This document shows positions 37,357 through 58,564 of a stretch of 64,000 nt of DNA, one piece after another. Under the pieces are notes generated by a model, which worked only from the letters and a program-made list of their open reading frames with translations, was not told where the DNA came from and did not search any database. Where the stretch lies: contig NZ_JANKBZ010000002.1 of assembly GCF_024623785.1 (NCBI RefSeq), positions 186,001 to 250,000 of the forward strand. The letters run 5' to 3'. Each line of letters opens with the position of its first letter. Position 1 is the stretch's first letter. Position numbers and translations under genes: made by a program. The stretch is from Archangium lipolyticum. GTDB taxonomy: Bacteria; Myxococcota; Myxococcia; Myxococcales; Myxococcaceae.

Positions 37357-37433
37357 CGGGGAGTGGCTCAGCCTGGTAGAGCACTTGGTTCGGGACCAAG
37401 GGGTCGCAGGTTCAAATCCTGTCTCCCCGACCA
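37357..37433 (+). tRNA. tRNA-Pro, anticodon CGG
   Basis: A 77-nt cloverleaf with encoded CCA. The acceptor stem CGGGGAG pairs with CTCCCCG, the anticodon arm CTTGG-TTCGGGA-CCAAG gives anticodon CGG (Pro, codon CCG), and the T-arm contains GGTTCAAATCC. The last 50 bases (37384-37433) are repeated at 46786-46835 and 58501-58550, so this gene is the integration target of a mobile element family. Confidence 0.96.
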
Positions 37434-37820
37434 TCAGAAGGGCGCGGAATCCTTGGAGAAATCCTCGGGTCCGCGCCCTTCGTCTTTCCGGGGCCAGGAG
37501 GCCAGCGGCAAACGAGCAGTGCGCTGCACGGTGGCCAGCGGGACTCCTGCCTCGAGCAGCAGGGTGGCCGTGGTGTGCCGCAGGTCGTGGAAGCGCAGCG
37601 GGCGAGGGAGCGCCCGTGGCCACGGCTTCATGCCGCGGCGGGGGCAGGGCTCGGGCACCCCGTGACGCTTCCTCGCCCTGTAGCCGCAGCCCTTGCGCCG
37701 ACAGACGGGGTTGTAGCCCTCCACCAGCGCATCCCGGTGTAGACGGCCGTGGCGAACCCATGGCTCATGCTGCACCTCCCATGAGGGACAACTCGCGAGG
37801 TCGTGCCTCCATTCAGGCAA
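37434..37820 (-). pseudogene. Remnant of a tyrosine-recombinase integrase
   Basis: The minus-strand frame ends right against the tRNA. It contains VEGYNPVCRRKGCGYRARKR, a Cys-rich insert I associate with myxobacterial integrases, then LRFHDLRHTTATLLLEAGVP, which is box II (HxxR) of tyrosine recombinases. The following half with the catalytic Tyr (usually about 35 residues further on) is missing; after ATVQR the reading becomes unlike an integrase. The N-terminal catalytic Arg box is also absent. Only about 128 codons remain of an expected 350-450, so it is dead. Its position fits an element that inserted into the tRNA. Confidence 0.8.
37437..37487 (+). terminator. Terminator-like hairpin after tRNA-Pro
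   Basis: AAGGGCGCGGA at 37438-37448 pairs perfectly with TCCGCGCCCTT at 37470-37480, followed by CGTCTTTCC. It lies within the integrase remnant and probably ends the tRNA transcript. Confidence 0.6.
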
Positions 37821-40800: not shown

Positions 40801-41532
40801 TCATGGGGCGCCTCGCGGCACCTGCTCCCCGGGCGTGAAGACGAGCCCGTCCAGTACGCCATAGGCGTAGAGCGCCGCGAAGGCATACGCCCCCACCAGG
40901 TAGGAGACGTTGAGCCCCCGAGCCGTCACCGCGTCCTCGGGGGTGTATTTGCCGTCGGGGCCTCGCAGCGCCAGCGCCGCGCCGAGCGAGGCCGCCGACA
41001 CGACGAAGGTGGTGCCCTGCGTCACCGCCAGCACGGTGCCCTTCGTGTTCCTCTGGTGCACGAAGTGGCCCACGCCAAAGGGCACCAGGTACCAGCCTCG
41101 CGAGGGCTCGGGGCGTGGCTGGAGCGCCAGCTTCACCTCCGAGGGCGGGGGGGGCTCCCGAGGCACGAGCACGGGGCGGCGGCGCTGCTCGGCCTTCGCG
41201 GAGATGCTCGCCGCGTCCTGGGTGCGCACCCGCTCCACGAAGGCGCTGAAGTCCGGTGGATACAGCAGGGGATCCAGCTTCGCACCGGGGCTCGCCGCGA
41301 GTCCCTCCACCACTTCGCGCTCCGCCCGGCCCGGATCCTCCTGGGCGTGGTACGTGGCGGCCAGCAGCAGGTGGGCCTCGGCCTCCTCGGCGGCGTCGCT
41401 CAGCCGCAGGGGGTAGAGGAGCGCTTCCAGCTCGGCGCGGGCCTTCGCCAGCTCTCCGGTCTGGTACGCCTCGCGAGCGGGCTCCAGCGCCGGCGAGGAC
41501 GACAGCATCAGCGCCACCACGAGCTCCATCAT
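40801..41532 (-). CDS. Exported protein of unknown function, coupled to the kinase gene
   Basis: A 243-aa protein with a short signal-like start (MMELVVALMLSSSPALEPAR), a TPR-like helical pair (REAYQTGELAKARAELEALL and EAEAHLLLAATYHAQEDPGR), a Pro-rich linker (about residues 120-145), and two hydrophobic segments near the end. It overlaps the stop of the Ser/Thr kinase gene by 4 bp and probably works with it. Small TPR-membrane proteins of this sort often follow PEGA-domain kinases in myxobacteria; the role is unknown. Confidence 0.7.
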   Translation of the reverse strand: MMELVVALMLSSSPALEPAREAYQTGELAKARAELEALLYPLRLSDAAEEAEAHLLLAATYHAQEDPGRAEREVVEGLAASPGAKLDPLLYPPDFSAFVERVRTQDAASISAKAEQRRRPVLVPREPPPPSEVKLALQPRPEPSRGWYLVPFGVGHFVHQRNTKGTVLAVTQGTTFVVSAASLGAALALRGPDGKYTPEDAVTARGLNVSYLVGAYAFAALYAYGVLDGLVFTPGEQVPRGAP

Positions 41533-43349
41533 GGCGAGCTCCTCAACACCACCTCGGTCCTTGCTCCCGCCTCCACGTTCACCTCGCGCCGCAAGAAGCC
41601 TCCTCCCTGGACCCGCGCCGAGAACACGTGCCTTCCGTGCTGCACCATCACCGGTCCTGGCAGGGGCGCCACGCCCAGCTGGGTCCCATCGACGAAGACC
41701 GGCGAGCCCTCGAGCGCGACGATGCGCACCTCGGCTTTGCTCACCCGCAGGGTGATGTCGCGCGACACCACTTCGCCCGGGGCCACCTGGAGGACCTCCA
41801 CGAGGGGCTCACACATCGGGTTGTCGAAGCGCAGCCGGTGCGTGCCCGGCGACAGGCGCACCTCACGCACGCGGGGCGTGTAGCCCCGGCTCTGCCCGTC
41901 CACGAACACCTCGGCCCAGGGGCGCGCCACCACGTGCAACGTCGCGGGCTCCCGGGACTCGGGCACCTGAGACTCGGGCGTCTGGGGCCGCGGCGCAGGC
42001 GCTTCGGCGACGGGACGCGGCTCCTCCGGAGGTGGATTGTTGGGCCGGGGAGGGGGCTCCGTCCGCTTCGACGGGACATGGCGGAGGGCAGGCTTCGTGG
42101 CCACCGGCGCGGACGTCTTGGGGGCGGGCTCGGGAACGGGCTTCGACTCGGGAACCGGCTGCGATGGAGGCGCCGCGGAGGGCGCGCTCGCCGGAAGGAC
42201 GGGAGCCGTCGCCACGGGCTCCGGTGCTCCCGGGTGTCGCGCCCAGGCCCAGACGCCCAGGGCCACGAGAAGGGCCGCCAGCACGGTGCCTCCCACGAGG
42301 GCCTTCGTGCGATGCGCCGGCGGACGTGCGCGCAGCAACTCGCGCACCTCGGTGGAGTCCGGACGGAGCAACAGCGCGGCATTGAGCAGCTTCGCGGCCC
42401 GTGCCCCCTGTCCCCTGGCGAGCAACGCGCCGCCTTCCTCGAGCAACCGTTGGAAGTGGAGGTCGCGCCACCTCGCGGTCTCCGCCTCCGGCTCCTGGAA
42501 GAAGCGCCGGGAGACCTCGGCGGGAGAGCCGGCGATGCGGCCCACCACGTCCTCCAGGAGCGCGGCCAGCTCAGCGCCGTCCTTCGGCCGATCCCTCACG
42601 TCCCGGGCGAGGCAGCGGGCCACCAGCTCGCTCAGCGGCTCGGGCGTGCCGGGCACCACCTCCCCGAGCCGCGGTGCGTCCCGCGTCATCACCGCGGTCA
42701 CCAGCTGCGCGCTGCCCTTGCCCGCGTGCGGTGTCGTCCCGGCGCACAACTCGAAGACGAGCACGCCCAGCGCGTAGACGTCCGAAGCGGGGGAGAAGGC
42801 GCCCGTATCCAGGCGCTCGGGGGCCGTGTACGCGAGCGAACCGGTGACGGTACCGGTGCTCGTCAGGCGCTCGTCGTCCGCCAGCGCGGCGAGGCCGAAG
42901 TCCGCCAGCTTCAACGTCCCGCTCCGGGACACGAGCACGTTGTCCGGCTTCACGTCCCGGTGCACCACGCCGTGCGCGTGGGCCTCACCCAGCGCCTGCG
43001 CCAGCGTCCAGCCCAGCACGGCCGCCACCATGGGCGGCACGGGCGCGAGCCGCCGGGCCAGCGCGCGCAGGTCCTCGCCCTGCACCCACTCGCACACCAG
43101 GAAGGGCCCACGGCGGGCGTCCTCTCCGAAGTCGTGAATCTCCAGCACGTGGGGGTGCTTGATGGAGGCGGCCAGCTCGGCCTCACGGCGGAAGCGCTCG
43201 GCGCGGCGCCCATCCTCGCTCGGATGCATCACCTTGACCGCCACCCGGCGCGCCAGCCGTGTGTCCCGGGCCAGGAAGACCGTGGCCATGCCGCCTCGTC
43301 CCAGTTCCTGCTCCAACTGGTAGCGGCCGGCCAGCAATTCGTCCGTCAT
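41529..43349 (-). CDS. Transmembrane Ser/Thr protein kinase with C-terminal PEGA-like domains
   Basis: A 606-aa Hanks-type kinase. The cytoplasmic kinase domain (1-265) has the P-loop GRGGMATVFLA, catalytic Lys39, HRDVKPDN with Asp132, and DFG Asp150, so it should be active. After a membrane helix (about residues 345-365) comes a Pro-rich spacer (370-460) and two PEGA-type beta repeats (WAEVFVDGQSRGYTPRVREV and GSPVFVDGTQLGVAPLPGPV). PEGA regions are thought to contact the envelope. The downstream 243-aa gene overlaps it by 4 bp. The ligand is unknown. Confidence 0.93.
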   Translation of the reverse strand: MTDELLAGRYQLEQELGRGGMATVFLARDTRLARRVAVKVMHPSEDGRRAERFRREAELAASIKHPHVLEIHDFGEDARRGPFLVCEWVQGEDLRALARRLAPVPPMVAAVLGWTLAQALGEAHAHGVVHRDVKPDNVLVSRSGTLKLADFGLAALADDERLTSTGTVTGSLAYTAPERLDTGAFSPASDVYALGVLVFELCAGTTPHAGKGSAQLVTAVMTRDAPRLGEVVPGTPEPLSELVARCLARDVRDRPKDGAELAALLEDVVGRIAGSPAEVSRRFFQEPEAETARWRDLHFQRLLEEGGALLARGQGARAAKLLNAALLLRPDSTEVRELLRARPPAHRTKALVGGTVLAALLVALGVWAWARHPGAPEPVATAPVLPASAPSAAPPSQPVPESKPVPEPAPKTSAPVATKPALRHVPSKRTEPPPRPNNPPPEEPRPVAEAPAPRPQTPESQVPESREPATLHVVARPWAEVFVDGQSRGYTPRVREVRLSPGTHRLRFDNPMCEPLVEVLQVAPGEVVSRDITLRVSKAEVRIVALEGSPVFVDGTQLGVAPLPGPVMVQHGRHVFSARVQGGGFLRREVNVEAGARTEVVLRSSP

Positions 43350-43397
43350 CGCCGCCCATCCTAGGGAGCCCCTCCTACCCGGGCAATCACTCCGGCG

Positions 43398-43934
43398 TCA
43401 CGGCAGGTGACAGACGCGCCCCGGCCTGCCCGGTACTTTCTCGCACACCCCCGGTGCGGCTCCGGGGCACTCGGCGTCGGCGCTACACGGTTGATGGCAT
43501 CGCTTCTCGCCACTGCTGCCCGAGGGCACGCAGACGCTACAGCGGCCGCATTCGGTGGAGCTGTTACAGAAGACGCCGATCTTCGTGGGAGGCCCTTCGG
43601 TGCAGGCCTCGACGCACTCGTAATCCGGAGCGCACTGGTAGCCGAGCCGGCAGGGGCCCCCCACGCAGTCCAGGGAGCAAAGGCCGTCCTGGCAGAAGGC
43701 CGCGTAGGAGCACGTGCCGTAGCCGCTACACGGTTGGGTGACCCGGGGGCCCGGCTCACAGTGGTTGTTCCGGCTGGCATCGCCGCAGCGCTGTCCTTCC
43801 GGACACTCCTGGTCCTTCACGCACGCCAGCGGCCCCGCATCGGGGTTGTCCTGCTCGCGGACCTCGATGTCGAGGGGGCATCCCAGCACGGTCACCAGGG
43901 CGAGCGGCGCGAGGAGTCGGACGAGTCGGTGCAT
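43398..43934 (-). CDS. Cysteine-rich lipoprotein
   Basis: A 178-aa exported protein with a lipobox (LVTVLGC, Cys 19) and more than twenty Cys in spaced pairs (CVKDQECPEGQRC, CSGYGTCSYAAFC, CRLGYQCAPDYEC, CNSSTECGRC). The pattern resembles EGF- or Dickkopf-like small disulfide modules that are frequent in myxobacterial surface lipoproteins. No enzyme motif is present. It lies between the kinase and the FHA-type sigma-54 activator on the same strand, with gaps of 48 bp on both sides. Confidence 0.8.
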   Translation of the reverse strand: MHRLVRLLAPLALVTVLGCPLDIEVREQDNPDAGPLACVKDQECPEGQRCGDASRNNHCEPGPRVTQPCSGYGTCSYAAFCQDGLCSLDCVGGPCRLGYQCAPDYECVEACTEGPPTKIGVFCNSSTECGRCSVCVPSGSSGEKRCHQPCSADAECPGAAPGVCEKVPGRPGRVCHLP

Positions 43935-43982
43935 GCGGAGCTCAGCAATACTCCAGGCCGCGCACGAAAGGACAGGGCTCGC

Positions 43983-45719
43983 TCAGGACTCCTCGCCGAG
44001 GTAGCGGAAGATCGACCGTAGCCCGATGCCGAGCGCCTGCGCCGCGTCCTTCTTGCTGCCGCCGCTCCGGGCGATGGCCTCGCGCACGTAGCGCTGCACG
44101 AAGGCCTCGCGTGCCTCCTCCAGCGGCACCAGCGGTGCCGAGTCCGCGCCCAGCTCCAGGTCCTCGGGGCCGATGAGCTCTCCGGTGGCGAGGATCGCCG
44201 CGCGCCGCACCCGGGACACCAGCTCGCGCACGTTGCCGGGGAAGGGATGGCCGCGCAGGGCCTCCGTGGCCTTCTGGGTGAAGCCCTTCGCGCGCCCGCC
44301 CTCGCGGCTCAGCACGTGGTGGGCGATGAGCAGCACGTCGTCACCGCGCTCGCGCAGGGGCGGCACCTCCACGCGAACCTCGTCCAGGCGGTAGAGCAGA
44401 TCTCCCCGGAAGCGGCCCTCCTCCACCAGGATCTTGAGGGGACGGTGCGTGGCCGAGACCACGCGCATGTCCACCTTGCGCGGATGGTTCTCCCCCAGCC
44501 GGGTCACCTCGCGCTCCTGCACCACACGCAACAGGCGGGACTGGAGCGGCAGCGGCATGTCGCCGATCTCATCCAGGAAGAGCGTGCCGCCATCCGCGGC
44601 CTCCACGAGTCCGGGCCGGTCCGTCCCCGCCCCCGAGAAGGCGCCCTTCACGTGGCCGAACAGCTCCCGCTCGATGAGCGACTCGGGGAGGGCCGCGCAG
44701 TTGATGGCCACCAGCCGCCCGCGCCGTCCACTGCGCCGGTGCAGCGCTCGCGCCACCTCCTCCTTGCCGGTGCCCGTCTCGCCCTGGATGAGCACGTGGA
44801 GCGAGGTGGGCCCCAGCCGTTCCACCTGCCGGTACAGCGCGCGCATGGCGTGCGACTCACCGATGAGCCCCTCGAAGGTGGCCGCTTCGATGCGCTGGGT
44901 GAGGCTCTCCACTCGTGTGCGCAGCTCCCGCAGCTCGCTCGAGGTGGCCAGCAGCAGCGCCGCGAGCGAGGTCAGGGCCATGGCCTCTTCCAGTTCCCGA
45001 GGCGAGAACGGCGGGCGGCCCGTGTGGCGTCCGAGGTACACGACGGACAGCGGCGCCGTGCCTCCGCGCAGGGGCAGCACCAGGGCGGAGGTGAGGCGCA
45101 GGGCGACGACACTGGGGGCGCCGGCCAGCGCCGCGTCCGAGGCCACGTCCGCCACGAGCACGGGAGCACCCGAGGCCACCACCTGGTTGACCAGGCTGTC
45201 CACCACCGCCGCCTCGGGCACGGGCCCGGTGGAACACAGCACCTGGCGCCGCGGCTGCTCCACCGACACGAGGAAGCCCACGTCCGCGTCCGCCACTTCC
45301 GCGAGCCCGCGCATGGCCACCTCCAGGAGCTCCACGGTGGGCCGCTGGACCATCAGCCGCGAGGCGAAGCCCGTGAGCACCGCCAGCAGCCGCCCGCCCG
45401 GGGCCACCTCCGGCGAGGAGCCCGCGACGGCCGGGGCCGCTTCGGAGGAGAGCAGGGTGAGGGTGACGCGCCCCACGGAGAAGGACTCTCCCGGAGCAAT
45501 CGGTGCCAGCTCCACGCGCTTGTTGCGCACGCGCACCTCGCAGCCCCTGGCCGTGGCGGACACCGTCCAGCCTCGCGCGTCCTGGAAGAGCAGCGCATGG
45601 CTGGGCTTCACCCCCGGCTCCCGGAGGACGACGTCGCAAGCGGAGTCGGAGCCCACGGACACCACCGGTTTCTCCAGGGGAACGTGGCGGCCATCGGGGA
45701 GGACGAGCAGGAGCGGCAT
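43983..45719 (-). CDS. Sigma-54-dependent activator with FHA and GAF domains
   Basis: A 578-aa enhancer-binding protein. An N-terminal FHA domain (about 14-75: VVSVGSDSACDVVLREPGVK then SHALLF) binds phospho-threonine and so can link to Ser/Thr kinases such as the one at 41529-43349. A GAF-like domain (about 110-270) follows, then the AAA+ domain with GETGTGKEEV, the sigma-54 loop as GAFSGA instead of GAFTGA, and FLDEIGDMPL. The C-terminal Fis HTH is GGSKKDAAQALGIGLRSIFR. The Ser in the loop is a known natural variant. Target promoters are not visible here. Confidence 0.93.
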   Translation of the reverse strand: MPLLLVLPDGRHVPLEKPVVSVGSDSACDVVLREPGVKPSHALLFQDARGWTVSATARGCEVRVRNKRVELAPIAPGESFSVGRVTLTLLSSEAAPAVAGSSPEVAPGGRLLAVLTGFASRLMVQRPTVELLEVAMRGLAEVADADVGFLVSVEQPRRQVLCSTGPVPEAAVVDSLVNQVVASGAPVLVADVASDAALAGAPSVVALRLTSALVLPLRGGTAPLSVVYLGRHTGRPPFSPRELEEAMALTSLAALLLATSSELRELRTRVESLTQRIEAATFEGLIGESHAMRALYRQVERLGPTSLHVLIQGETGTGKEEVARALHRRSGRRGRLVAINCAALPESLIERELFGHVKGAFSGAGTDRPGLVEAADGGTLFLDEIGDMPLPLQSRLLRVVQEREVTRLGENHPRKVDMRVVSATHRPLKILVEEGRFRGDLLYRLDEVRVEVPPLRERGDDVLLIAHHVLSREGGRAKGFTQKATEALRGHPFPGNVRELVSRVRRAAILATGELIGPEDLELGADSAPLVPLEEAREAFVQRYVREAIARSGGSKKDAAQALGIGLRSIFRYLGEES

Positions 45720-45783
45720 GAGTGTCTGGAAATCCTACAGGTCCTTCGTTCTAAGTTGATGGGCTTGCTTCGAGGAGGGCCTC

Positions 45784-46653: not shown

Positions 46654-46849
46654 CAGCAGCAAGATAGCAGCAAAATCCTTGGTGCCCTCGCGTACGGGAT
46701 GAGATGGCTGGACAGGTCCGGCTTCAGAAACCCGAGTATTTACAAAGGGTTGTGAACCATTGGTAACCCCTAGACGCTCCCCGGCCTTGATTTGGGACCA
46801 AGGGGTCGCAGGTTCAAATCCAGTCTCCCCGACCATCAAAAGCCCTGGA
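46654..46849 (+). repeat. 196-bp direct repeat, copy 1 (element right end plus att)
   Basis: It aligns without gaps to 58369-58564 (offset 11715), with about 25 differences in 196 by my count (about 87% identity). It starts CAGCAGCAA, contains AGCAGCAAAATCCTTGGTGC and the 50-bp tRNA-derived segment, and ends AAAAGCCCTGGA. It probably represents one arm of an attP region. Confidence 0.85.
46786..46835 (+). other. Attachment site: second copy of the tRNA-Pro 3' end
   Basis: 47 of 50 bases match 37384-37433, including the whole T-arm and CCA. The 5' half of the tRNA is absent, so it is not a functional tRNA. The differences fall in the anticodon arm and at one T-arm base. Confidence 0.9.
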
Positions 46850-46997: not shown

Positions 46998-49900
46998 ATG
47001 TCGAGCGAGCTTGCTTTCCTGGTCCAGCATCCCTTGGTCCTGCAAGCGGCTTGGCTACGAGTTCAGGACTGGTACCGCCAGATGTGGTCACCCGAGTCTG
47101 ATCTCGCCCAATGGCGCCTGGAACCCGAGCGCCATCTCGCCGAGTTGGGAAAGTTGCTCGCCAGCGGCGACTACGCACCGGAGCCCTTTCCACTCCTGCC
47201 TCATCCGAAGCCCGGGGGCAGGTTGCGGCATTACTGCCTGCCGTCCGTGCGTGATCAGGTGGCCTTCGCCGTACTGGGCTGCCTCCTCGCTCCCCTCATC
47301 GAGGGGGCGATCCCCAACTTCTCGCTGGGAAACAGGACTTATCGTCGTGCGGCCCGTAGGTGGCGCTCCGTCAGCGAAGTGGCGAACTACCATAAGTTCG
47401 ATGCGCCGGAGGACGCACCGGGGGAAGGGAAGCGCAAGGTCTGGGACAGCCTGCCGTTCTCTCTTGCCGATACGCGGATGTACCAGCCCTATCGGCGAGC
47501 CCATGGCCTCTTCCGGCGCATCATCCACTGGAGCGCGGCGGCGCTCACAAAGTCCAAGATCAACGAGGGGCGGGCCACGGATCGAGCGCTGCGGCCATCG
47601 GACTATCCGTGGAACCACGTCTCGCCCTTCACCAACCGCAAGTGGTGGACGGGTCGGTCATCAGGAGGGAGACGCGGCTATTGGGCCCGGTTGGATCTCC
47701 AGCTCGCCTTCCCCTCCGCGAGCCTGGAGTTCCTGGATCTCCAGCTCAAGGAGATTCTGTCGGATCGCCTCCAGCAGGAGATCGAGTCCAGCAGCCGCGC
47801 TGCATGGATCTCCCGCTTCGGGAGGATCTCCCGGGACGATGCCTTGAAGGAGTACCCGGAGGAGATCCGGGAGCAACTCAAGAAGCCGGAGATCCGGGAG
47901 TGCCTTCGCAAGACGCTCATCACGTGGCTCTCCCAGGTGCGCTACGAGCCACTGCCCTCGGATCCCCAGGCGCAGGGTCTCTCCGACCTCTGGCGTCCAC
48001 CTCATTCGGATCAGCGGCTGCCGTTGGGCACGGGCCAGGAGCATCCAGGAATCCCGACTGGCCTAGCCATCTCGGGCCTGCTGCTGAATGCATACCTAAA
48101 CCGCTTCGACCAGCGGATGTTGCGTGCGGCCTTGATGGGCCGGGACAATGGGCGGCCCTTCGCGGTGTTCAGGTTCGTGGACGACATCGTGTTGCTGGCT
48201 CCCAGCCGCTACATCCTGGCCGGCGCCATTGACGAGGCCTGGCGCGGGCTCGCGGGGGCGGACTCAAGTCTCGCCACGCGCGTCTCCTCGGAGATTCCCA
48301 GCAACCTCCGGGTGAATTGGGAGAAGGTGGGGCCCGATTCCCTCGCGAAGTTGTTGTCGAAGTACCTCGGGGCCTCCTGGTATGGCGCCAGGGACGAGGA
48401 GAAATGCGAAGGCTGTAGCCTCATCGTTCCTCCGCCCCTCGAATCCAAGCGAACGCGCTCTGCACCTCCGTCCTTCCAGGAATGGATGCGCGCGCAGCGG
48501 AAGAAGGCGAAGAAGCGCGAGGAGGCGAGGGCAGCTGGAATCGCGAGCCCAGACGAACAGGAGGCTGACACCTTCAGTCCTCTCTTCCGGCAGCTCAGAC
48601 TCGATGCGGTCCGTAAGAATCGTCTGGGGCCCTTCGTCACCTATCTTGTCGAGCGATTGAGCGCGCTGGGCAACGATGGGCTCGCCAACCGGTTTGGAGC
48701 GGGTGCCAGGAACCGCCTCATCGATCTTCACGAGCTGTGCCGGTTCGATTTAAATGACGAGGAGGTCAAGACGGAGACGCGGTTGTCCTTCGCGGCCAAT
48801 CAGCTCGCCAGGGCGTGGCTGGATGAGGAGAGCATCGAGGGAGACCGGCTCCAATTGAAGGAAATCCGGCAGTCGGTCCGCCACGCGGTGCAGAATGCTC
48901 CCGCGAAGTTCCAGCTGTGGCGCAGTGTCATTCGTGTGGCGTTGCGCCGCCCCATCGGTGGAAAAGATGGCGCCGCCGCCGATGCGGATCGAGCTGATGC
49001 CCGTAAATGGCTGCGGGGGATGTTGTCGCTCATCTCGAACGAGAAGGTCGCCGAAGGTGGTGTGACGAACCTCGAGCGCTTCCCCGAGGTTCGCTCGTTG
49101 TCCATCTGCTGGCGCAATACTCCCGGGATTGAGTTCTCCGAGCAGGAGCTCGCCACGCGTCAACGTGAGGTCGTACGGCTCTACTACTCCTTTCTCCGGG
49201 CCGCCTTCTGGCGATACGTGGCGGAGGAGTTGTTGTACCTCTGGCGCGTCAAGTCCTTTGATGAGAACGCTGAAGGATTTGAGGCCGCTCCGGCCTGGAG
49301 TTCGCAGTCCTGGTTGTTCCGGGCCCTGCCCGAGCAGGAGCTCTCCCACGCCCTGGAGTGGCTGGCCCGGCTGGATGACTGGGTGCTCATCCGCCGTGAG
49401 CGGCAGGAGCCGTCCCAACGCAGTGAGGGGCAGGAGATGCCCCAATTGGGTTGGTGGGAGCTGGATGCGATGGTCCTCGCCACCCTCTCCGCGCTGCCGA
49501 GACGCAAGCTGCTGGAGTTGAGGAAGCCGCCCAGGGGCAAGGCACCGGGAGCTTCGGAGGTGCCCCTTCTCGCTCTCGCTCTGCCCAATGTCGCCGGAGT
49601 CTTTCGTGGGAACCTCTTGGTCCACGGGCTGCTCAATGTGGGGAAGCGTCTCCTTCCGACGAAGGAGTTCTCTCCGCTTGCGCGGCTGCTGCCCCTGCTC
49701 GCGTTGTCAGGAGTGGAGCCGGGAGACGAGAAGGCTCTTGTGGATTTGCTTCGCCGGGACGCCGCACTGCGAGCGGATCCGCTGGGTCTTCACGAGGTGC
49801 TCAAGAACCTCGGGTTGGAGCTGGACCTCCCTGCTGCCTGCCTCAAGGAGTGGGGGAAGGAGGCGCGTGAGCAGGTGAAGAGCCTGCGCTCGGTCCAGGA

Positions 49901-51809
49901 GCCGTCTTCCGAGCTGTTCGAGGTGTACCGGCGCTACAGGTTGACATTCCGGCATGCGCTGCGAAGGCTTCCCGCGCTTCCTGGCGCTCGCAGGAGAGAG
50001 ACGCTGCACCGTCTGCTCTGGGGGGACCTCTGGCAGGTGAAACGTCTTTCCAAGGCTCGGATTCAACCGGAAGTAGCGCCTCGCCTCGGTCTGCCCACCC
50101 GGGTGGCGCTGAAGCTGTTCCTGGATGCGATCACGCCCCTGTCCGAACCGCTACACGCTGCGGATGAAACCCGCTTCCACCCACCCGTGTGGGTCATCCA
50201 GCCAGAGGCCTCCGGGTTCCTGGCCTGGGGACGGCATCGGCAACTGCTGGGCGGGGCGGCCCCTTCCTCCGTGAAGACCCCGCGAACCGCCAGGCCCTGG
50301 GTGGAAGTCTCCGACGACGAGACCGCCTGGGAGGTGCTGCCCAACCCCGTGCTGTTCTGGCCGCGGGCACATGGGTTTCGCATGAGCCGTCTGGGGTATC
50401 AGCTCTGGTGTCACACGCTGCTGTTCATGACCGCGTGTGATGGCCATGAGAGCATGCTCGATACGCTCGCCCGACGGGGGGCAACACCGAGCGCCATCAA
50501 CGAGAATTGGAAGATCCGCAACCGGCTCCACCTGCCGGAGGAGTTCTGGACGATCCTCGATCAGATCATCCGTCAAGCGCTCCTCAGCCCCAAGAGGTAC
50601 CGGGAGCGGGAGCTCAGCCTCGTCTCGGAGCTCAAACTCCAGATCCAACGGCTGCTCAAGACGCGGCTCTCCGTTGACGATTTCTTCTGGGAGCGCGTCG
50701 ATGTCGTCCTGAATGACCACGACGCCCAGGAGGCCCCTCGGCACGTCTCCCGGTTCTCGCTGAACAAGCCCAGCCGCCCACCGCGACAGATGAAGCTTCG
50801 CGCCGAGGGCTTGGAGGAAGATCTCTGCGTTCGGATGGGCCAGCTCGCCGCGACCTATTCCCCGAAGGCCTACTGCCAGCGATTTCCCCGCAGCGTCCCA
50901 CGCGAGGAGATCCAGGCCATCATGCGCGAGGTCAATACCGCCATGAGTGCGCCGAGTTCGGCCCCCACGAATAGCACTCCCGAGAACCCGGCCCCCCGGC
51001 TGCGGACTCCGGAGCTGGTGATTCTGCCGGAGGCGATCGTTCCGCCTGGCGAGCTTCGGGAACTGGAACGCCTCGTCGCCCTGGAGCGGCGGGCTGTGCT
51101 CTGTGGAGAGATGTTCAAGCCGGTTCCGCCCGTGTCTCCGACGCGGCGCCATGACGCGAGCCCTCGCTGGCTCGTTAACGAGGCCTGCCTCCTCTTTCCC
51201 GTCATGGTCTCGGGAGATGGGGGCCTGCCACTCGTCCGCCGGTTCACCATCCGCAAGCCCATGCCCACCCATGTCGAGTTCGGTCTGGCCACGGCGCTCT
51301 CCGAGCGGAAGGAGGCTCGTGGCCGGAAGGGCACGGAATGGAAGGTGCTCGCGGGCCAGCGGTGGTACCGCTTCGTCAACCACCGGTGGGGTGATTTCAC
51401 GGTGGCCATCTGCTCGGATTTGATCGATCCAAGCCCCTGGTGGTCCCTGCGCTCCCAGGTCCTTCATATCTTCATGTGCGCCTACAACACGGACGTCGAC
51501 CTGTTTGACTCGATGAGCTGGGTGCGTGCGTACGAGAACTACTGTAATCTCGTGTCCGTGAACCACGGTGAGCCCGGAGGTTCCTTCGCCTGGACTCCCG
51601 GGCGCAGTCATTCCCGTGAGCTGGCGAAGCTTCGAGGCTCGGGGCTCTTCCTGCTCGCGGACGTCCTCATTCCCGTCAAGGACCTGCACGAGGCACAACT
51701 CCACGGAACGGAGTGGGCCCGGGACGCGGCGGTGAAGCATTGGTCTGAAACGAAAGAGATCAAGAATCGCTTCAAGGCACCTCCACCCACCTTCCCATCG
51801 CGGAAGTGA
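46998..51809 (+). CDS. Reverse transcriptase-nitrilase fusion, DRT type 1 (UG1)-like antiphage protein
   Basis: A 1603-aa protein. The RT domain spans about residues 60-460: KPGGRLRHYCLPSVRDQVAF, motif A RLDLQLAFPS (Asp233), motif B GIPTGLAISGLLLNAY (351-366), and the catalytic motif C FRFVDDIVLLA (Asp395, Asp396). A long helical middle (about 480-1300) has no recognisable domain. The C-terminus (about 1335-1560) is a nitrilase fold with the full triad: Glu1345 in VILPEAIVP, Lys1420 in FTIRKPMPT, Cys1472 in VAICSDLIDP. RT-nitrilase fusions of the UG1 group (DRT type 1) protect against phages. At 1603 aa it is longer than the roughly 1200-aa members I recall, and another nitrilase-bearing UG group is possible. 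GGGAGGGGG precedes ATG 46998. Confidence 0.9.
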   Translation: MSSELAFLVQHPLVLQAAWLRVQDWYRQMWSPESDLAQWRLEPERHLAELGKLLASGDYAPEPFPLLPHPKPGGRLRHYCLPSVRDQVAFAVLGCLLAPLIEGAIPNFSLGNRTYRRAARRWRSVSEVANYHKFDAPEDAPGEGKRKVWDSLPFSLADTRMYQPYRRAHGLFRRIIHWSAAALTKSKINEGRATDRALRPSDYPWNHVSPFTNRKWWTGRSSGGRRGYWARLDLQLAFPSASLEFLDLQLKEILSDRLQQEIESSSRAAWISRFGRISRDDALKEYPEEIREQLKKPEIRECLRKTLITWLSQVRYEPLPSDPQAQGLSDLWRPPHSDQRLPLGTGQEHPGIPTGLAISGLLLNAYLNRFDQRMLRAALMGRDNGRPFAVFRFVDDIVLLAPSRYILAGAIDEAWRGLAGADSSLATRVSSEIPSNLRVNWEKVGPDSLAKLLSKYLGASWYGARDEEKCEGCSLIVPPPLESKRTRSAPPSFQEWMRAQRKKAKKREEARAAGIASPDEQEADTFSPLFRQLRLDAVRKNRLGPFVTYLVERLSALGNDGLANRFGAGARNRLIDLHELCRFDLNDEEVKTETRLSFAANQLARAWLDEESIEGDRLQLKEIRQSVRHAVQNAPAKFQLWRSVIRVALRRPIGGKDGAAADADRADARKWLRGMLSLISNEKVAEGGVTNLERFPEVRSLSICWRNTPGIEFSEQELATRQREVVRLYYSFLRAAFWRYVAEELLYLWRVKSFDENAEGFEAAPAWSSQSWLFRALPEQELSHALEWLARLDDWVLIRRERQEPSQRSEGQEMPQLGWWELDAMVLATLSALPRRKLLELRKPPRGKAPGASEVPLLALALPNVAGVFRGNLLVHGLLNVGKRLLPTKEFSPLARLLPLLALSGVEPGDEKALVDLLRRDAALRADPLGLHEVLKNLGLELDLPAACLKEWGKEAREQVKSLRSVQEPSSELFEVYRRYRLTFRHALRRLPALPGARRRETLHRLLWGDLWQVKRLSKARIQPEVAPRLGLPTRVALKLFLDAITPLSEPLHAADETRFHPPVWVIQPEASGFLAWGRHRQLLGGAAPSSVKTPRTARPWVEVSDDETAWEVLPNPVLFWPRAHGFRMSRLGYQLWCHTLLFMTACDGHESMLDTLARRGATPSAINENWKIRNRLHLPEEFWTILDQIIRQALLSPKRYRERELSLVSELKLQIQRLLKTRLSVDDFFWERVDVVLNDHDAQEAPRHVSRFSLNKPSRPPRQMKLRAEGLEEDLCVRMGQLAATYSPKAYCQRFPRSVPREEIQAIMREVNTAMSAPSSAPTNSTPENPAPRLRTPELVILPEAIVPPGELRELERLVALERRAVLCGEMFKPVPPVSPTRRHDASPRWLVNEACLLFPVMVSGDGGLPLVRRFTIRKPMPTHVEFGLATALSERKEARGRKGTEWKVLAGQRWYRFVNHRWGDFTVAICSDLIDPSPWWSLRSQVLHIFMCAYNTDVDLFDSMSWVRAYENYCNLVSVNHGEPGGSFAWTPGRSHSRELAKLRGSGLFLLADVLIPVKDLHEAQLHGTEWARDAAVKHWSETKEIKNRFKAPPPTFPSRK

Positions 51810-52104: not shown

Positions 52105-54039
52105 TCACCCCAGCGGATTATGCTTAGCATGAGCATCTCCTGAGCCGTTCACTTGGGGCACGAGATCTTGGGCCTTCCCGAAGCTCGCACAGATGTCGAG
52201 GATGGTTAAACCCCCGGACCAATAGTTGTTCATGGATGCCTGTTTCAGCCAGCGGAACTCTTCTTCATCCTCCTTTTGCTCGCGCGCCTGGATGTATTGT
52301 TTGACGTCGGCGGCAAGCCCGGGGTGTTGGAGTAGGGGTGAACGGTCTGTTGCTCGTATCCGTGACAACAACCAGTGGCATTGCGTGAAGTGCCTCATCG
52401 TTAGCTGACGGAAGCTTTCACTCAAGCTCGACCAATGGTTATACGCACGTGCCAATTCCACCATAATTGGGTGGGTCGCACTTAACAATTTTGTGTCATG
52501 AAGGCTGCGCAATCTGGATTGAACGAGTTCGTGTACGTCACTTCTCTTGGCCCACAACCAATCCACGAGTTCCGTTGATGCTCTGTACGTGGGTGAGTCA
52601 GGTACATTCTTGAAAGCGTCCCGTACCCATATCTCCAATGTGCGGCAGAGCGCGCGCTCGAAAGTCATGAGAGAGATGTAGAGCAGTGTCTCGTGCTTTA
52701 ACTCATCGGTTGTTTCCGTGATCCGCCGGGTCAGCATGGGAGACGCGGATACAGTAGTTGATGGATGTTGGGTGAGCCGTTCCCAGGTCCGGACTCCTGT
52801 ATCCACGTCACCGTCGATAAATGAAGCCCGTCCTCTCCAATGGAGCGCCAATGGTTCCTCCCATCGGGATAGGAGTTTGTTGGCCTGCTCGATAAGTCTC
52901 TCGCGCATGACGGTCTCTCTCCGCGAAGAGGGCAATCCTCCTGCGATGGTGACAGCGCATGGCGCCCAGAGCAGGGCGTCCCAGGAGCGTGGCTCCAGCT
53001 TGTCTCCGATGGAGGTCAGAGCGGATGCTAGGTCGTTATGGTTCGATACATCCGAAAAATGGATGATGCACCTGAGGAGTTCCTTCCGATTGGAATCCTG
53101 CTCGGGCCAGGCAGGTGCGAGCGCCTGCCATGCCGCCAGATTTTCTTGTGGCGCCGCATCACCCAAGGGGAATCGCCTCAAGAGACGCGCGAAAGAGAGA
53201 TCTCCCTGGGACCAGGTTTTTTTCTCGCCAAGGAGATCCCGGCTCACGAGGAGCAGCGCCGCCCCATGCAAATGCCACAGGGGACGGGTGTCCAAGCGTT
53301 GCTCCCAGCTACGTCTTGAGATTGCTTCCAGCAGTTCCTGCTCCACCAGCCGCCGCTCTGCCTCTGCCCAGCTGCTTGGGTGGGATTGGTTCCTGGGCGT
53401 CTCCAAGAGCTCGTCCTCTGCGGTGAGCCCCAATCTTTGGCAGAGGGTCTCTCCGCGAGGAGATAAAGAATAAAAAGCCGTCTCCGCGTTACCGCGGGCG
53501 GGTAGCGTACGGCGCAGCAGGAGTTGCTGCGAGTACAGCTCATCCAACACCTGTCCCACGCGAACCGCGCTCGGCCGGGAGCTGGCTCTCATGGCCTCAT
53601 GAACCTCGCTGCGGCGCATGTATTGCTGGTGCTTCAGGAATACGCGCAGTATCTCTCGCTGTGTTGGAGACCTCTCCCTGTTGTCGAGCTCCATCTCCGT
53701 CGTGGCTCGCGTCATCGCGCGCTCACCGAGTTTCAAGAATTGCCAGACGGAATGGATATCGAATGCGGCCTCCTGCGTGGGAGGAGCATTGGGTGGTAGG
53801 TGCCGCTCGGCAAAACCGAGCAAGGAGGCCAGCGCCCCCAGTACGACCCGGACGTGTTGCAGGTCCCCGAGTGCCACCCGATTCCAGACATCAGAGACCA
53901 GCGCCCAAAGGTACGTCCGATACGTATGGGGGTCCGAACTGTCACCCTGTTCCAGATTCTCCAGCGCGCCTCGGAGTTGTTCGACGAGCGTTGGGAGATC
54001 CTCAGAGGGCTGAGGGTAAAAATGTTGGATGTGCCCCAT
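52105..54039 (-). CDS. Winged-helix protein of unknown function, partner of the stand-alone nitrilase
   Basis: A 644-aa protein. Residues 124-205 form a MarR/PadR-like winged helix (SPTQREILRVFLKHQQYMRR, then VGQVLDELYSQQLLLRR and an aromatic wing TAFYSLSPRGETL). The rest is all-helical, with repeated Trp and Leu-rich segments that may be TPR/HEAT-like. No catalytic motif is seen. Base composition is clearly lower in GC than its neighbours, so it is acquired DNA. ATG 54039 has AAGGATAAGG just upstream. However, GTG/ATG at 54153/54150 would overlap the nitrilase stop (TGATG) and give 38 more residues, so translational coupling is possible. Probable sensor or regulator of the nitrilase; the function is unproven. 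Confidence 0.75.
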   Translation of the reverse strand: MGHIQHFYPQPSEDLPTLVEQLRGALENLEQGDSSDPHTYRTYLWALVSDVWNRVALGDLQHVRVVLGALASLLGFAERHLPPNAPPTQEAAFDIHSVWQFLKLGERAMTRATTEMELDNRERSPTQREILRVFLKHQQYMRRSEVHEAMRASSRPSAVRVGQVLDELYSQQLLLRRTLPARGNAETAFYSLSPRGETLCQRLGLTAEDELLETPRNQSHPSSWAEAERRLVEQELLEAISRRSWEQRLDTRPLWHLHGAALLLVSRDLLGEKKTWSQGDLSFARLLRRFPLGDAAPQENLAAWQALAPAWPEQDSNRKELLRCIIHFSDVSNHNDLASALTSIGDKLEPRSWDALLWAPCAVTIAGGLPSSRRETVMRERLIEQANKLLSRWEEPLALHWRGRASFIDGDVDTGVRTWERLTQHPSTTVSASPMLTRRITETTDELKHETLLYISLMTFERALCRTLEIWVRDAFKNVPDSPTYRASTELVDWLWAKRSDVHELVQSRLRSLHDTKLLSATHPIMVELARAYNHWSSLSESFRQLTMRHFTQCHWLLSRIRATDRSPLLQHPGLAADVKQYIQAREQKEDEEEFRWLKQASMNNYWSGGLTILDICASFGKAQDLVPQVNGSGDAHAKHNPLG

Positions 54040-54149
54040 GGCCTTATCCTTTCTGTACTCTTTCTCTACGCTAGAATGATGTGGATTTTCCGGCAAGTCG
54101 CTATTGGCCGCAGAGTCGGCGGCAGGCGGTCGCTCCCTCGGAGGGCCCA

Positions 54150-55670
54150 TCACCGCAGGGCCGCCGTCCAGTGCGCCCCCACATCGATGACCATGCTGCC
54201 GTGCCCGGTGAGAAAGGCCCCGCGGTGCCGGGGCCCCATGGGAAGCCAGTCGTCGCGGTCCAGGTCGTGATAGCGCAGGAAGTCCTCACCATGGCGCCAC
54301 TGGAAGCGCGTGGGCAGCTCGCCGCCCGCCACCTCGGGAAGGGCCAGGTACGCGAAGGCCCGATCCTCGCTCGACCTGGGACCGAGGATGCTCGCCGCGT
54401 TGACGAAGAAGGTGGACCCTCCCAGACGCAGGAGGGTGCGCGCGAAATCGTGGAACTCCTTCGTCTTCCTCGTCATCGCGCTGATCAAGACGAACGAGGG
54501 ACGCAGGTCCAGAATCAGCTCGCGGTAGTCGGGGTCGAGTACGTCCGCGCAGATGGCCCACACGATGCGGCCAAGGTTGGTGCAGAGGAAGGGGGACCTC
54601 GTGGCGTGGAGGATTCCCTCGCGGATCTCCGGCGGCAGCTTCATGGCCGGATGGGAGAAGACGTCCGGGCGGCGCCGGACCTGCTCCGCTGTCACCCTGT
54701 ACAGGCCCCCCTTGCGCACCGTCATGAGCGTCCTGCCGGAGCCGTCGAGCAGCTCGCCCTGGTTGGACGGCAGCCGCTGCGCGCCGTGGCACCACGCGTG
54801 GCCGCTGCCGGCGAAGACACCAAGCAGCCCCCGGGGACGGCACTGCTGGAGTTCACGGCGAAGGCCGTCGCGCAGCACCGGGGGCACCATCAGCTCCGGG
54901 AGCAAGGCGAGGTCCACCGGGTAGAGCGGGAGCTCCTCGCGCACGAGCGTTCTCATGCGCGCGAGGAGCTCCTCCTGATCCTTCACGGGCATGTCGCGGT
55001 GAGCCGTGAAGAACTGGCCGTCCTCGGTGAGCGTGAACTGGGGGGCGGCTGTCCCGGCCAGGGGAACGAGCGCAATCCGGAATTGCCCGTTGCTCAGGCG
55101 GAACCCCGGGGCCTCGCGGAGAGCGAGGTCCGACTGGCGCTCGGGCAGGTAGTAGCGGCCCGTGCGGGGATGGGAGAGGGCGATACCGTGGAGCACGCGG
55201 TCCATCGGCTGCGGCGGGTAGATGTGCGGCGGGTTGTCACGTGCCTGGCGGCGCCTGTCCTGTAACTCCGCCCAGAAGGAGTACGGCTCCCTCCAGCAGT
55301 GGACCCGGCCGGAAATGACGACTTCATCGCCGTCCTTGAGCGGCTCGAGGTCGACAAAGGGAGGCAGCTCCGTGTCCTCCCCCCAGCGCGCGATGAACTC
55401 GGCCAGGACCCACACCGTGTGTTCTAGGAAGGAGTAGAGTTCGGCGGCGGACTTCCCGCTCAGCTTCTGGCAGGCCTGCACCACGGCGGAGTTGGGGATG
55501 AAGACCGGCTTCACCTCCGCCTGCGCCTCTGGGTACCGCTCGTGCAGGGCCTGGAGGACCGCAGTGCACGCACAGTACAGCGCCACCAGCCCGTGCAGAG
55601 TGTTCACCTGCGGGCTGGTGGCCAGTTTGCCGAGGACGCGCGCGGCTCCCTCGAATAATTGTCGACTCAT
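54150..55670 (-). CDS. Stand-alone nitrilase-fold (C-N hydrolase) protein of the defence segment
   Basis: A 506-aa protein. The first 120 residues are helical and Cys-containing (ALYCACTAVLQALHERYPEA), then a beta-rich linker, then a nitrilase core (about 195-480) with an intact triad: Glu259 in LALLPELMVP, Lys320 in MTVRKGGLY, Cys374 in WAICADVLDPDY. The Cys motif IC-A/S-D-V/L-x-DP closely resembles that of the RT-fused nitrilase 3 kb away (ICSDLIDP), more than typical amidases do. AGGAGGGCGG stands just before ATG 55670. It is the first gene of a minus-strand pair with the winged-helix gene. A metabolic amidase is the alternative, but the 190-residue N-terminal extension argues against it. 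Confidence 0.82.
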   Translation of the reverse strand: MSRQLFEGAARVLGKLATSPQVNTLHGLVALYCACTAVLQALHERYPEAQAEVKPVFIPNSAVVQACQKLSGKSAAELYSFLEHTVWVLAEFIARWGEDTELPPFVDLEPLKDGDEVVISGRVHCWREPYSFWAELQDRRRQARDNPPHIYPPQPMDRVLHGIALSHPRTGRYYLPERQSDLALREAPGFRLSNGQFRIALVPLAGTAAPQFTLTEDGQFFTAHRDMPVKDQEELLARMRTLVREELPLYPVDLALLPELMVPPVLRDGLRRELQQCRPRGLLGVFAGSGHAWCHGAQRLPSNQGELLDGSGRTLMTVRKGGLYRVTAEQVRRRPDVFSHPAMKLPPEIREGILHATRSPFLCTNLGRIVWAICADVLDPDYRELILDLRPSFVLISAMTRKTKEFHDFARTLLRLGGSTFFVNAASILGPRSSEDRAFAYLALPEVAGGELPTRFQWRHGEDFLRYHDLDRDDWLPMGPRHRGAFLTGHGSMVIDVGAHWTAALR

Positions 55671-55981: not shown

Positions 55982-58234
55982 ATGCACGATACCGGGATGG
56001 ACCATGGTTGTGCCCGGCCGGTGGACCGGAGCCAGCTGAATACGTGCCCCGAGCAGAAGTGCGACCTCATCATGAAGGGCGGCGTGACGAGCGGAGTGGT
56101 CTACCCTCCCGCCATCCTGAAGCTGGCGCAGCGGTACCGCTTCCACGCGATTGGGGGGGCCTCCGCAGGTTCCATCGCTGCCGCTGCGGCCGCCGCGGCG
56201 GAGTATGGGCGGCAGACTGTGGCTGGGAAGGCACCTAGTGGGACGTCCCACGGCTTCATCCGGCTCGCGGAGCTGAATGATGAGCTGGCGTCGCCGGGCT
56301 TCGTGCGACGACTCTTCGAGCCCTCTTCGACATGCAGGCCTCTCTTCAACGCCATCCTGGCCTGGCAGGCCTGGGGGGCGAAGGATCGCAAGCGGGCCCT
56401 CAAGAAGGAGGAGCGCAGGTGGCAGAAGGCACAGCCGCGGAGCACGGCGCAGGACACGGCGAACCCGCCGGAGACGGAGCCCCCGGGGACGGAGCCGCAG
56501 GATGGAGCGCAGGCGCCTGGCGGGGGACAGGGCGTGCTCGGCTTCATACGGACTGTGGCGAGGCTCAACCTCGTCTGCCTGAAGTCGGTGCCGGTCTGGT
56601 ACATCCTGGGCGCGCTGGTGGGGTTGCTCGTGGGGGCGCTGCTGCTGGGGGGCAGCTTCGCTTGGCTCCTGAGGTGCTCTCAGGCGGCAACTGGCTGGTC
56701 CTGCGTGCTCGGTTGGGTCGGAGTCGTGTTGATGCTCGTGCTCTGGGGGGGGAGCCTCCTGCTGGGAGGGCTCCTCGCGAGCGGATTGGTCTTCAAGCGC
56801 ATCGTCGCCGCGCTGAATGACAAGGACGCGCACAAATTCGGCATCTGCCCGGGGAGCCGTGGCGCTGGTGCGCCCCTGGACCCGAGCAAGCCGCTGGTGT
56901 TGACGGACTGGCTGTATGTGCGCCTCAACGAACTGGCGGGTCGTGGGCCCGGGGACGCGCCCATCACGGTGAGTGACCTGAAGAAACTGAAGGACCTGAA
57001 GACTCCGGAGGAACAGAAGGTCCATGGCATCCACTTCAAGCTGGTGACGAGCAACCTCACGCTGGGCCAGCCCTACACGCTGCCCATGAGCCGCGGCAGC
57101 CGCTCGTTCTTCTTCAAGAAGAGCGAGATGGATCGGCTCTTCCCGAAGCCGGTCGTCGACGCGCTGGTGGCCTGGGGCAAGAAGAACCAGCCGGAGAAGT
57201 CCATCCGTATCCGTAAGGAGGACGAGGAGGAGTTCTTCCGCTTCCCCATGGGCGAGGACATCCCGCTGGTGGTGGCCACGCGGCTGAGCCTCAGCTTCCC
57301 GGTGCTGCTGAGCGCGGTGCGGCTCTACTCGGTGAAGCACGAGAAGTACCGGAAGCAGGGGGGAGTGCCCCAGACCATCAATTTGGCGACGGACCTCGAG
57401 GAACACTGGCTGAGTGACGGTGGCATCACCAGCAACTTCCCCATCCACGTCTTTGATGCCTGGGTGCCGCAGCACCCGACGTTCGGCATCACCCTCTACG
57501 ACTCGCCTTTGACCAAGGTGCTGGAGCAGCGCGAGGGGCACAAGCGTGAGAAGAACCCGCATGACGCCGTGTTACTGCCCTATCCCCATGACTTTGATAA
57601 GGCGCGGCCCCAGCGCACGGCCATCCAGGACACGCTGGGCTTCCTTCGCGCCGTCTTCGAGACGGCACAGAGTTACCGGGACAACGCGCAGGCGGGAATG
57701 CCCAGCTACCGCGAGCGCATCCTCCAGCTCTTCTTGGACGAGCACGAGGGCGGTCTCAACCTGGACATGGACAAGGACGTCATCCAGCACATCCAGGCCA
57801 AGGGGCAATGCGCGGCGCAGGAGTTGCTGGAGCGCTACGAGAACACGGACAGCGTCCACTTCTCCGAGCACCGCTGGGTGCGGATGCACGTGCTGATGGC
57901 GGAGTTGGAGCTCCAGCTCTTCGAGGTCCGCAAGCTGTTTCCTGGCGACACGTGGAAGGAGGAGCTGCGGGCGCGCTTTGACTCGCTCTTCAAGGAGCAG
58001 GTTGGCGCGCAGGCCCGGGAGGGTGGTTCGTGGTACAGGAACAAGGATCAGAAATGGTGTGATGAGGCCCGGAAGCGCCTGGATGCGCTGCTGGAGCTTG
58101 TCGATGAGTGGGACGAGTGCCAGCAGGCGTGGATGGGGGAGTACACGCCCACCGCGAACGAGGATCCGCGATTCTTCTTCGCCGCGCACCCACCCAGGCC
58201 CCAGGGCGTCCTCAAGGTCATTCCGAACCTGTGA
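55982..58234 (+). CDS. Patatin-like phospholipase with an internal membrane hairpin
   Basis: A 750-aa protein. The patatin lipase core is split. The oxyanion loop MKGGVTSGVVYPPAI (31-45) and nucleophile motif GGASAGS (Ser61) are at the start, and the catalytic Asp lies in LSDGGITSNFPIHVFD (Asp479), so the Ser-Asp dyad is complete. Between them are a charged stretch (130-180) and two to three hydrophobic segments (about 205-232 and 240-270), which would anchor it in the inner membrane. A helical C-domain (520-750) follows. Patatins are common killers of the host membrane in defence systems such as CBASS, but no nucleotide cyclase is beside it here. It could also be a self-contained toxin or a lipid-remodelling enzyme. 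ATG 55982 has GGGGAGCG upstream. Confidence 0.85.
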   Translation: MHDTGMDHGCARPVDRSQLNTCPEQKCDLIMKGGVTSGVVYPPAILKLAQRYRFHAIGGASAGSIAAAAAAAAEYGRQTVAGKAPSGTSHGFIRLAELNDELASPGFVRRLFEPSSTCRPLFNAILAWQAWGAKDRKRALKKEERRWQKAQPRSTAQDTANPPETEPPGTEPQDGAQAPGGGQGVLGFIRTVARLNLVCLKSVPVWYILGALVGLLVGALLLGGSFAWLLRCSQAATGWSCVLGWVGVVLMLVLWGGSLLLGGLLASGLVFKRIVAALNDKDAHKFGICPGSRGAGAPLDPSKPLVLTDWLYVRLNELAGRGPGDAPITVSDLKKLKDLKTPEEQKVHGIHFKLVTSNLTLGQPYTLPMSRGSRSFFFKKSEMDRLFPKPVVDALVAWGKKNQPEKSIRIRKEDEEEFFRFPMGEDIPLVVATRLSLSFPVLLSAVRLYSVKHEKYRKQGGVPQTINLATDLEEHWLSDGGITSNFPIHVFDAWVPQHPTFGITLYDSPLTKVLEQREGHKREKNPHDAVLLPYPHDFDKARPQRTAIQDTLGFLRAVFETAQSYRDNAQAGMPSYRERILQLFLDEHEGGLNLDMDKDVIQHIQAKGQCAAQELLERYENTDSVHFSEHRWVRMHVLMAELELQLFEVRKLFPGDTWKEELRARFDSLFKEQVGAQAREGGSWYRNKDQKWCDEARKRLDALLELVDEWDECQQAWMGEYTPTANEDPRFFFAAHPPRPQGVLKVIPNL

Positions 58235-58368: not shown

Positions 58369-58564
58369 CAGCAGCAAACTAGCAGCAAAATCCTTGGTGC
58401 CCTCGTGTACGAGCTGGGACGGCTGGACAGGCCCGGCTTTAGAAACCCGAATATTTACGTAGGCTTGTGAACCGCTGATAACCGCTGGATGCTCCCCTGC
58501 CTTGGTTCGGGACCAAGGGGTCGCAGGTTCAAATCCTGTCTCTCCGACCATTAAAAGCCCTGGA
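58369..58564 (+). repeat. 196-bp direct repeat, copy 2 (element right end plus att)
   Basis: Gap-free partner of 46654-46849. Together they bracket the RT-nitrilase, winged-helix, nitrilase and patatin genes. After AAAAGCCCTGGA the two copies diverge at once; only copy 1 keeps the terminator hairpin. Confidence 0.85.
58501..58550 (+). other. Attachment site: third copy of the tRNA-Pro 3' end
   Basis: 49 of 50 bases match 37384-37433 (one C to T in the acceptor stem). It is closer to the intact tRNA than the copy at 46786, so it may come from the more recent integration event. Confidence 0.9.

Follow-up and report, generated by a model that had tools for sequence, protein, structure and literature searches.

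A nitrilase gene and its partner on a tRNA-Pro-linked island of Archangium lipolyticum: a candidate two-gene defence module

Can a nitrilase serve bacterial immunity as a free-standing protein, with a partner other than a reverse transcriptase (RT)? The question is raised by two adjacent genes of Archangium lipolyticum (genome G000, 12.6 Mb; contig C2), which lie in the window, that is, the whole stretch of 64,000 nucleotides analysed here, and encode a divergent nitrilase (P0001) and a 644-aa protein (P0002). In the defence system DRT1, a nitrilase domain is the abortive effector, which the RT, together with its DNA adducts, holds in a dormant state (PMC13275509); according to the same 2026 paper, nitrilases are uncommon in anti-phage defence and the substrate is unknown (PMC13275509). 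A preliminary description of the window had proposed the pair, taken as a nitrilase and a winged-helix protein with helical repeats, as an undescribed defence module.

The gene pair and its two proteins

The two genes are long, coding-like open reading frames and the sole minus-strand genes between the RT and the patatin genes (Table 1). The pair is convergent to the RT gene, as described before, and in addition divergent from the patatin gene, which lies 311 bp from the nitrilase gene. The TGATG overlap proposed between the two genes is present in the DNA, but a 110-base gap is the likelier arrangement, because a GGA stands seven bases before the ATG at 54039, the start that yields the 644-aa protein; this start is preferred, with an in-frame ATG at 54150 or GTG at 54153 as possible alternatives. 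A search of the surrounding sequence revealed neither a sigma-70-like promoter nor a terminator. The patatin-like phospholipase may act as another effector within the island.

Table 1. Positions of the gene pair and surrounding features, counted from the first letter of the window
Feature	Position	Strand	Basis
P0001, nitrilase-superfamily protein, 506 aa	54150..55670	-	ORF and profile matches
P0002, partner, 644 aa	52105..54039	-	ORF
TGATG, in which the nitrilase stop overlaps an upstream ATG in frame with the second ORF; coupling possible	54148..54152	-	sequence
RT, DRT-like, 1603 aa, C-terminal nitrilase domain at residues ~1290-1599	46998..51809	+	PADLOC
Patatin-like phospholipase, 750 aa, with hydrophobic stretch	55982..58234	+	Patatin 8.6e-11
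Left 196-bp direct repeat, tRNA-Pro 3' end copy at 46794-46838	46654..46849	+	
Right 196-bp direct repeat, tRNA-Pro 3' end copy at 58501-58551	58369..58564	+	
tRNA-Pro(CGG), integration site	37357..37433	+	
Integrase C-terminal remnant beside tRNA-Pro	37434..37820	-	Phage_integrase 1.3e-05, just below the Pfam gathering score

The assignment of P0001 to the nitrilases is upheld by its match to a profile of relatives with conserved Glu, Lys and Cys (hhalign probability 97% against the other module nitrilases; profile score of 46 bits, where none of 3000 shuffles exceeded 5.5) and by a weak match to the PADLOC model RTasNitrilase (E=0.0037), and it has no match in Pfam, NCBIfam or PHROGs. The protein is built of an N-terminal extension of ~200 aa and a nitrilase part at about residues 190-430. 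PEL, H-K-F and C-K-D motifs are common to the nitrilases of three related loci (G093, G116 and G044, see below), in which Glu255, Lys314 and Cys359 (P0005 numbering) are invariant; among the candidate catalytic residues of P0001, Glu259 and Cys374 are conserved, and Lys320 is tentative because it lies one column off the Lys of the relatives. In the AlphaFold model, the order of strands and helices fits the alpha-beta-beta-alpha fold, but the pLDDT is 34.6. None of the module nitrilases reaches the CN_hydrolase cut-off, as they are too divergent. Their best library matches, all weak, are mostly RT-associated nitrilases: that of G093 matches the PADLOC model RT_UG5-nitrilase at 1.5e-5, and that of G116 matches no RT-associated nitrilase model. 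P0001 was not matched in plasmids, nor were the module nitrilases in phages and IMG/VR.

The winged helix ascribed to P0002 did not gain significant profile support. A candidate winged helix lies at residues ~124-205, and the best Pfam matches of this stretch, neither significant, are MAGE (E=0.076) and Penicillinase_R (E=0.13), two families that both contain winged-helix folds. The winged-helix profile of the relatives falls on P0002 in a sensible register (residues 141-204), with a score like that of shuffled sequence, as 537 of 3000 shuffles equalled or beat it, and homology to the partner proteins of the other loci is undetectable (hhalign probability 0.4%). The AlphaFold model is nearly all helix with a mean pLDDT of 40, so that the presence of TPR or HEAT repeats cannot be judged from it. 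The winged helix and the helical repeats of P0002 are thus plausible but hypothetical. At the sensitivities used, searches of 193 Myxococcota genomes, plasmids, phages and IMG/VR yielded no homologue of the protein, and no significant match in Pfam, NCBIfam or PHROGs marks it as a known regulator.

The foreign composition attributed to the second gene was confirmed, with a third-position GC of 0.66 compared with ~0.9 in host genes. The nitrilase gene of the window stands at 0.89, whereas the two genes of each complete pair in the other loci agree within 0.04. We infer that P0002 may correspond to the winged-helix partner, either evolving fast or swapped for another version; a swap would account for both its unalignable sequence and the mismatch in third-position GC, which make the window pair the least typical of all.

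Recurrence of the gene order and its mobile setting

Nitrilase profile searches of 195 genomes of the phylum led to six loci (the window, G093, G116, G139, G044 and G106), and when 314 genomes from another phylum were likewise searched for the nitrilase, G739 (35% GC) was the single match. The 215 genomes scanned near G300 belong to small-genome lineages and were uninformative. All six free-standing nitrilases, that of the window included, are followed by a separate gene on the same strand, which encodes a winged-helix protein in the other five. In G093, a 70 bp gap separates the nitrilase gene from that of a 386-aa winged-helix protein; in G139, a truncated nitrilase gene precedes an intact winged-helix gene; and in G739, the nitrilase gene overlaps a gene for a 309-aa winged-helix protein, after which a third gene (L086:853-1536) encodes a small helical protein without family match. 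The order in G116 and in G044, the latter from another family of the phylum, is identical, namely nitrilase, winged helix and phosphoribosyltransferase (PRTase); in G044, these genes show a gap of 38 bp and an overlap of 4 bp. The nitrilase of G106 is fused to an alpha/beta hydrolase and has no winged-helix gene.

The partners in G093, G116 and G044 have HTH_20/MarR-type Pfam matches, that in G139 belongs to the same alignable winged-helix family, and that in G739 scores 10.9 bits on the winged-helix profile, compared with 3.9 for the best shuffle, in addition to a weak Rrf2 match. When the 195 genomes were searched separately with the winged-helix profile, the best non-seed match was the G044 partner, beside its nitrilase, and a PRTase motif scan of genome contigs returned the G044 locus alone. 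Neither the winged helix nor the PRTase had a match in IMG/VR; an Aeromonas match to P0006 was dismissed as an ordinary MarR gene. As the G739 match lies in another phylum, the link between nitrilase and winged helix spans at least two phyla, and this observation holds, with the small counts of a rare module (six loci; ~3% of Myxococcota genomes). The co-occurrence that had been expected is therefore found for the nitrilase, which stands with a winged-helix partner in five other loci, but homology of P0002 to those partners is not demonstrable from sequence.

Wider relatives of the nitrilase lack a winged-helix gene, being fused either to the alpha/beta hydrolase of G106 or to NUDIX domains on actinobacterial plasmids of Rhodococcus, Mycolicibacterium and Streptomyces (L006-L009). 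The NUDIX fusions resemble the module in their nitrilase domains (27-36% identical) and differ from it in that a single fused gene takes the place of the pair; they indicate that the winged-helix partner is not used by every member of the family. ABC1-kinase genes (beside several of the fusions), HAD genes and metal-ATPase genes occur in their neighbourhood.

A mobile or defence island setting was found for the module, on a count of six loci that carries no formal enrichment statistic. The expectation that homologous pairs would lie near tRNA or defence genes held for several of the five further loci. Within 6 kb of the G739 pair are a retron II-A (RT 1.9e-107, NDT 1.7e-81) and a PDC-S15 FRG protein (1.3e-44). 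The G044 pair comes after a tyrosine integrase gene and a DUF4238 gene and before multiubiquitin/Prok-E2 and ThiF-JAB genes of an E1/E2-ubiquitin-like cluster, and the G139 pair adjoins a tRNA-Gly gene and an integrase fragment. In the window, the two 196-bp repeats are 87% identical and enclose the RT gene, the pair and the patatin gene, and no other gene. Successive cargo segments bounded by repeated tRNA 3' ends of 39-57 bp are seen in the window (37357-58564) and in two further genomes at the same tRNA-Pro, G143 (L061-L063), with serial copies ~13, 19 and 47 kb downstream, and G177 (L064), with a further copy 8 kb downstream; these serial copies point to this tRNA-Pro as an integration hotspot in the genus. 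On the left flank, homology to sister genomes ends at 45720, and the block concerned sits elsewhere in those genomes; the insertion was read from the repeats instead of from an empty site. This kinase/sigma-54 activator block (40814-45720), conserved in the sister genomes at another place, indicates that the region to the right of the tRNA-Pro was rearranged.

The mismatch between the two window genes also bears on whether they belong together at all. They might be unrelated neighbours, the nitrilase having lost its partner and the 644-aa frame having arrived separately, which would agree with the third-position GC values of 0.89 and 0.66, with the 110-base gap and with the lack of detectable homology of P0002 to the other partners. 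However, strand, order and close spacing are those of the five other loci, and a weak, in-register winged-helix fit follows an N-terminal helical region, so that we consider a chance neighbourhood unlikely.

Relation to RT-nitrilases and other systems

The RT of the window, which itself carries a nitrilase domain, matches RTasNitrilase (1.9e-29), RT_UG5-nitrilase (8.3e-19) and RT_UG6 (1.1e-17) in PADLOC and probably represents a class 3 UG/Abi RT not yet classified; about 880 aa separate its RT and C-terminal nitrilase domains, and the 195 genomes of the phylum hold no other match to it at E<=1e-30. As a DRT-like RT stands convergent to the pair, all of the segment might form a single, larger DRT-like locus with the RT-nitrilase, and perhaps the patatin, in which the pair would supply accessory subunits. 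The nitrilase domain of the RT, and the presence of just these four genes between one pair of 196-bp repeats, are in line with such a system. Yet P0001 has no RT domain, and the RT gene, being on the opposite strand and convergent, lies outside its operon. Moreover, a DRT-type RT is near none of the five other loci (none was seen within several kb on either side of G093, G116 and G044), and the retron II-A of G739, ~4 kb from the pair and on the opposite strand, has its own NDT effector. The nitrilase domain of the RT is also only distantly related to the module nitrilases (2.2 bits), by which P0001 as a plain copy of that domain was rejected as well. A DRT-like assembly that includes the pair is, in our judgement, unlikely.

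The pair might otherwise be a toxin-antitoxin or addiction unit that maintains the element instead of defending against phages, and two linked genes in a mobile context, with a partner of DNA-binding type in the relatives, are what such a unit would present. Both proteins exceed the typical toxin-antitoxin size, however, and to our knowledge no nitrilase acts as the toxin of such a system; pure addiction thus appears improbable, and addiction and defence are not mutually exclusive functions. An ordinary catabolic or detoxifying nitrilase or amidase with a local MarR-like regulator on a genomic island would fit the nitrilase fold, the MarR/ArsR-type winged helix of the relatives and the metabolic or stress plasmid islands of some wider relatives, but it is improbable given the divergence below the CN_hydrolase cut-off, the weak best matches mostly to RT-associated nitrilases, partners of 309-644 aa compared with regulators of ~150 aa, the absence of adjacent transporter or catabolic genes, and the occurrence in ~3% of Myxococcota genomes, several with retron, E1/E2 or integrase neighbours.

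The closest described parallels each share a part of the module. With DRT1 and the class 3 UG/Abi RT-nitrilases (UG1, UG5 and UG6), it has in common a nitrilase-superfamily domain with the Glu/Lys/Cys pattern, and RTasNitrilase and RT_UG5-nitrilase are the best, weak matches of several module nitrilases. In contrast to these proteins, the module nitrilase is free-standing, has the ~200-aa N-terminal extension and is encoded with a winged-helix gene in an operon without an RT. In retron III-A, a winged-helix protein and a PRTase are encoded under an RT (PMC12548924), and the winged-helix protein followed by a PRTase in G116 and G044 is the domain pair of those effector genes; the difference is that a nitrilase takes the place of the RT, which no module operon contains, and that the window has no PRTase. 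In P4-like satellites, a UG5 RT with a nitrilase domain is encoded with a transmembrane effector (PMC9122126), likewise a defence gene with a nitrilase in a mobile hotspot, but there nitrilase and RT form one fusion protein and the partner is transmembrane. The partner proteins of the relatives resemble MarR/ArsR-type regulators in the winged-helix domain, which in the module lies inside proteins of 309-399 aa; no family matches the helical N-terminal region or the C-terminal region of these proteins. The module winged-helix proteins have weak matches to CRISPR-type HTH models alone in PADLOC, and the module PRTases have no meaningful model score there. The earlier statement that no described system has this combination is in agreement with the PADLOC 2023 models and with the open-licence papers searched, in which no system joining a nitrilase to a winged helix, a PRTase or a defence island was found, an absence that is not proof.

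Proposed function and meaning

Since the order of nitrilase and winged helix recurs in five other genomes, twice beside anti-phage genes, sequence evidence makes the pair a good candidate for a bacterial immune system that has not been described. The proposal of a two-gene defence module is accordingly supported in part, by recurrence and by the mobile and defence context, but not in the winged-helix identity of the window's own second protein. On balance, we favour a horizontally moving two-gene conflict module, most likely antiviral, in which the nitrilase would be the effector and its partner a regulator or sensor.

How such a module might act can be outlined from the roles that we infer for its parts. 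Upon infection, the nitrilase may hydrolyse a C-N bond of an essential small molecule, or make a toxic product, and the cell would then stop, which would amount to abortive infection. The downstream protein, with its predicted N-terminal helical region, winged helix and variable C-terminal region, may repress the operon, keep the nitrilase inactive, or both, until the phage is sensed and release follows. The PRTase would be an optional third component in some genomes. More tentatively, nitrilase effectors may confer immunity without an RT in at least two phyla, with the winged-helix protein, sometimes together with a PRTase, possibly acting as the gatekeeper that the RT is in DRT1.

So far, descriptions of nitrilase effectors in immunity have been confined essentially to those within RT proteins. 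A free-standing nitrilase in a small operon would make the effector purifiable and a search for its substrate possible without an RT, and a winged-helix partner would add another control principle for nitrilase effectors.
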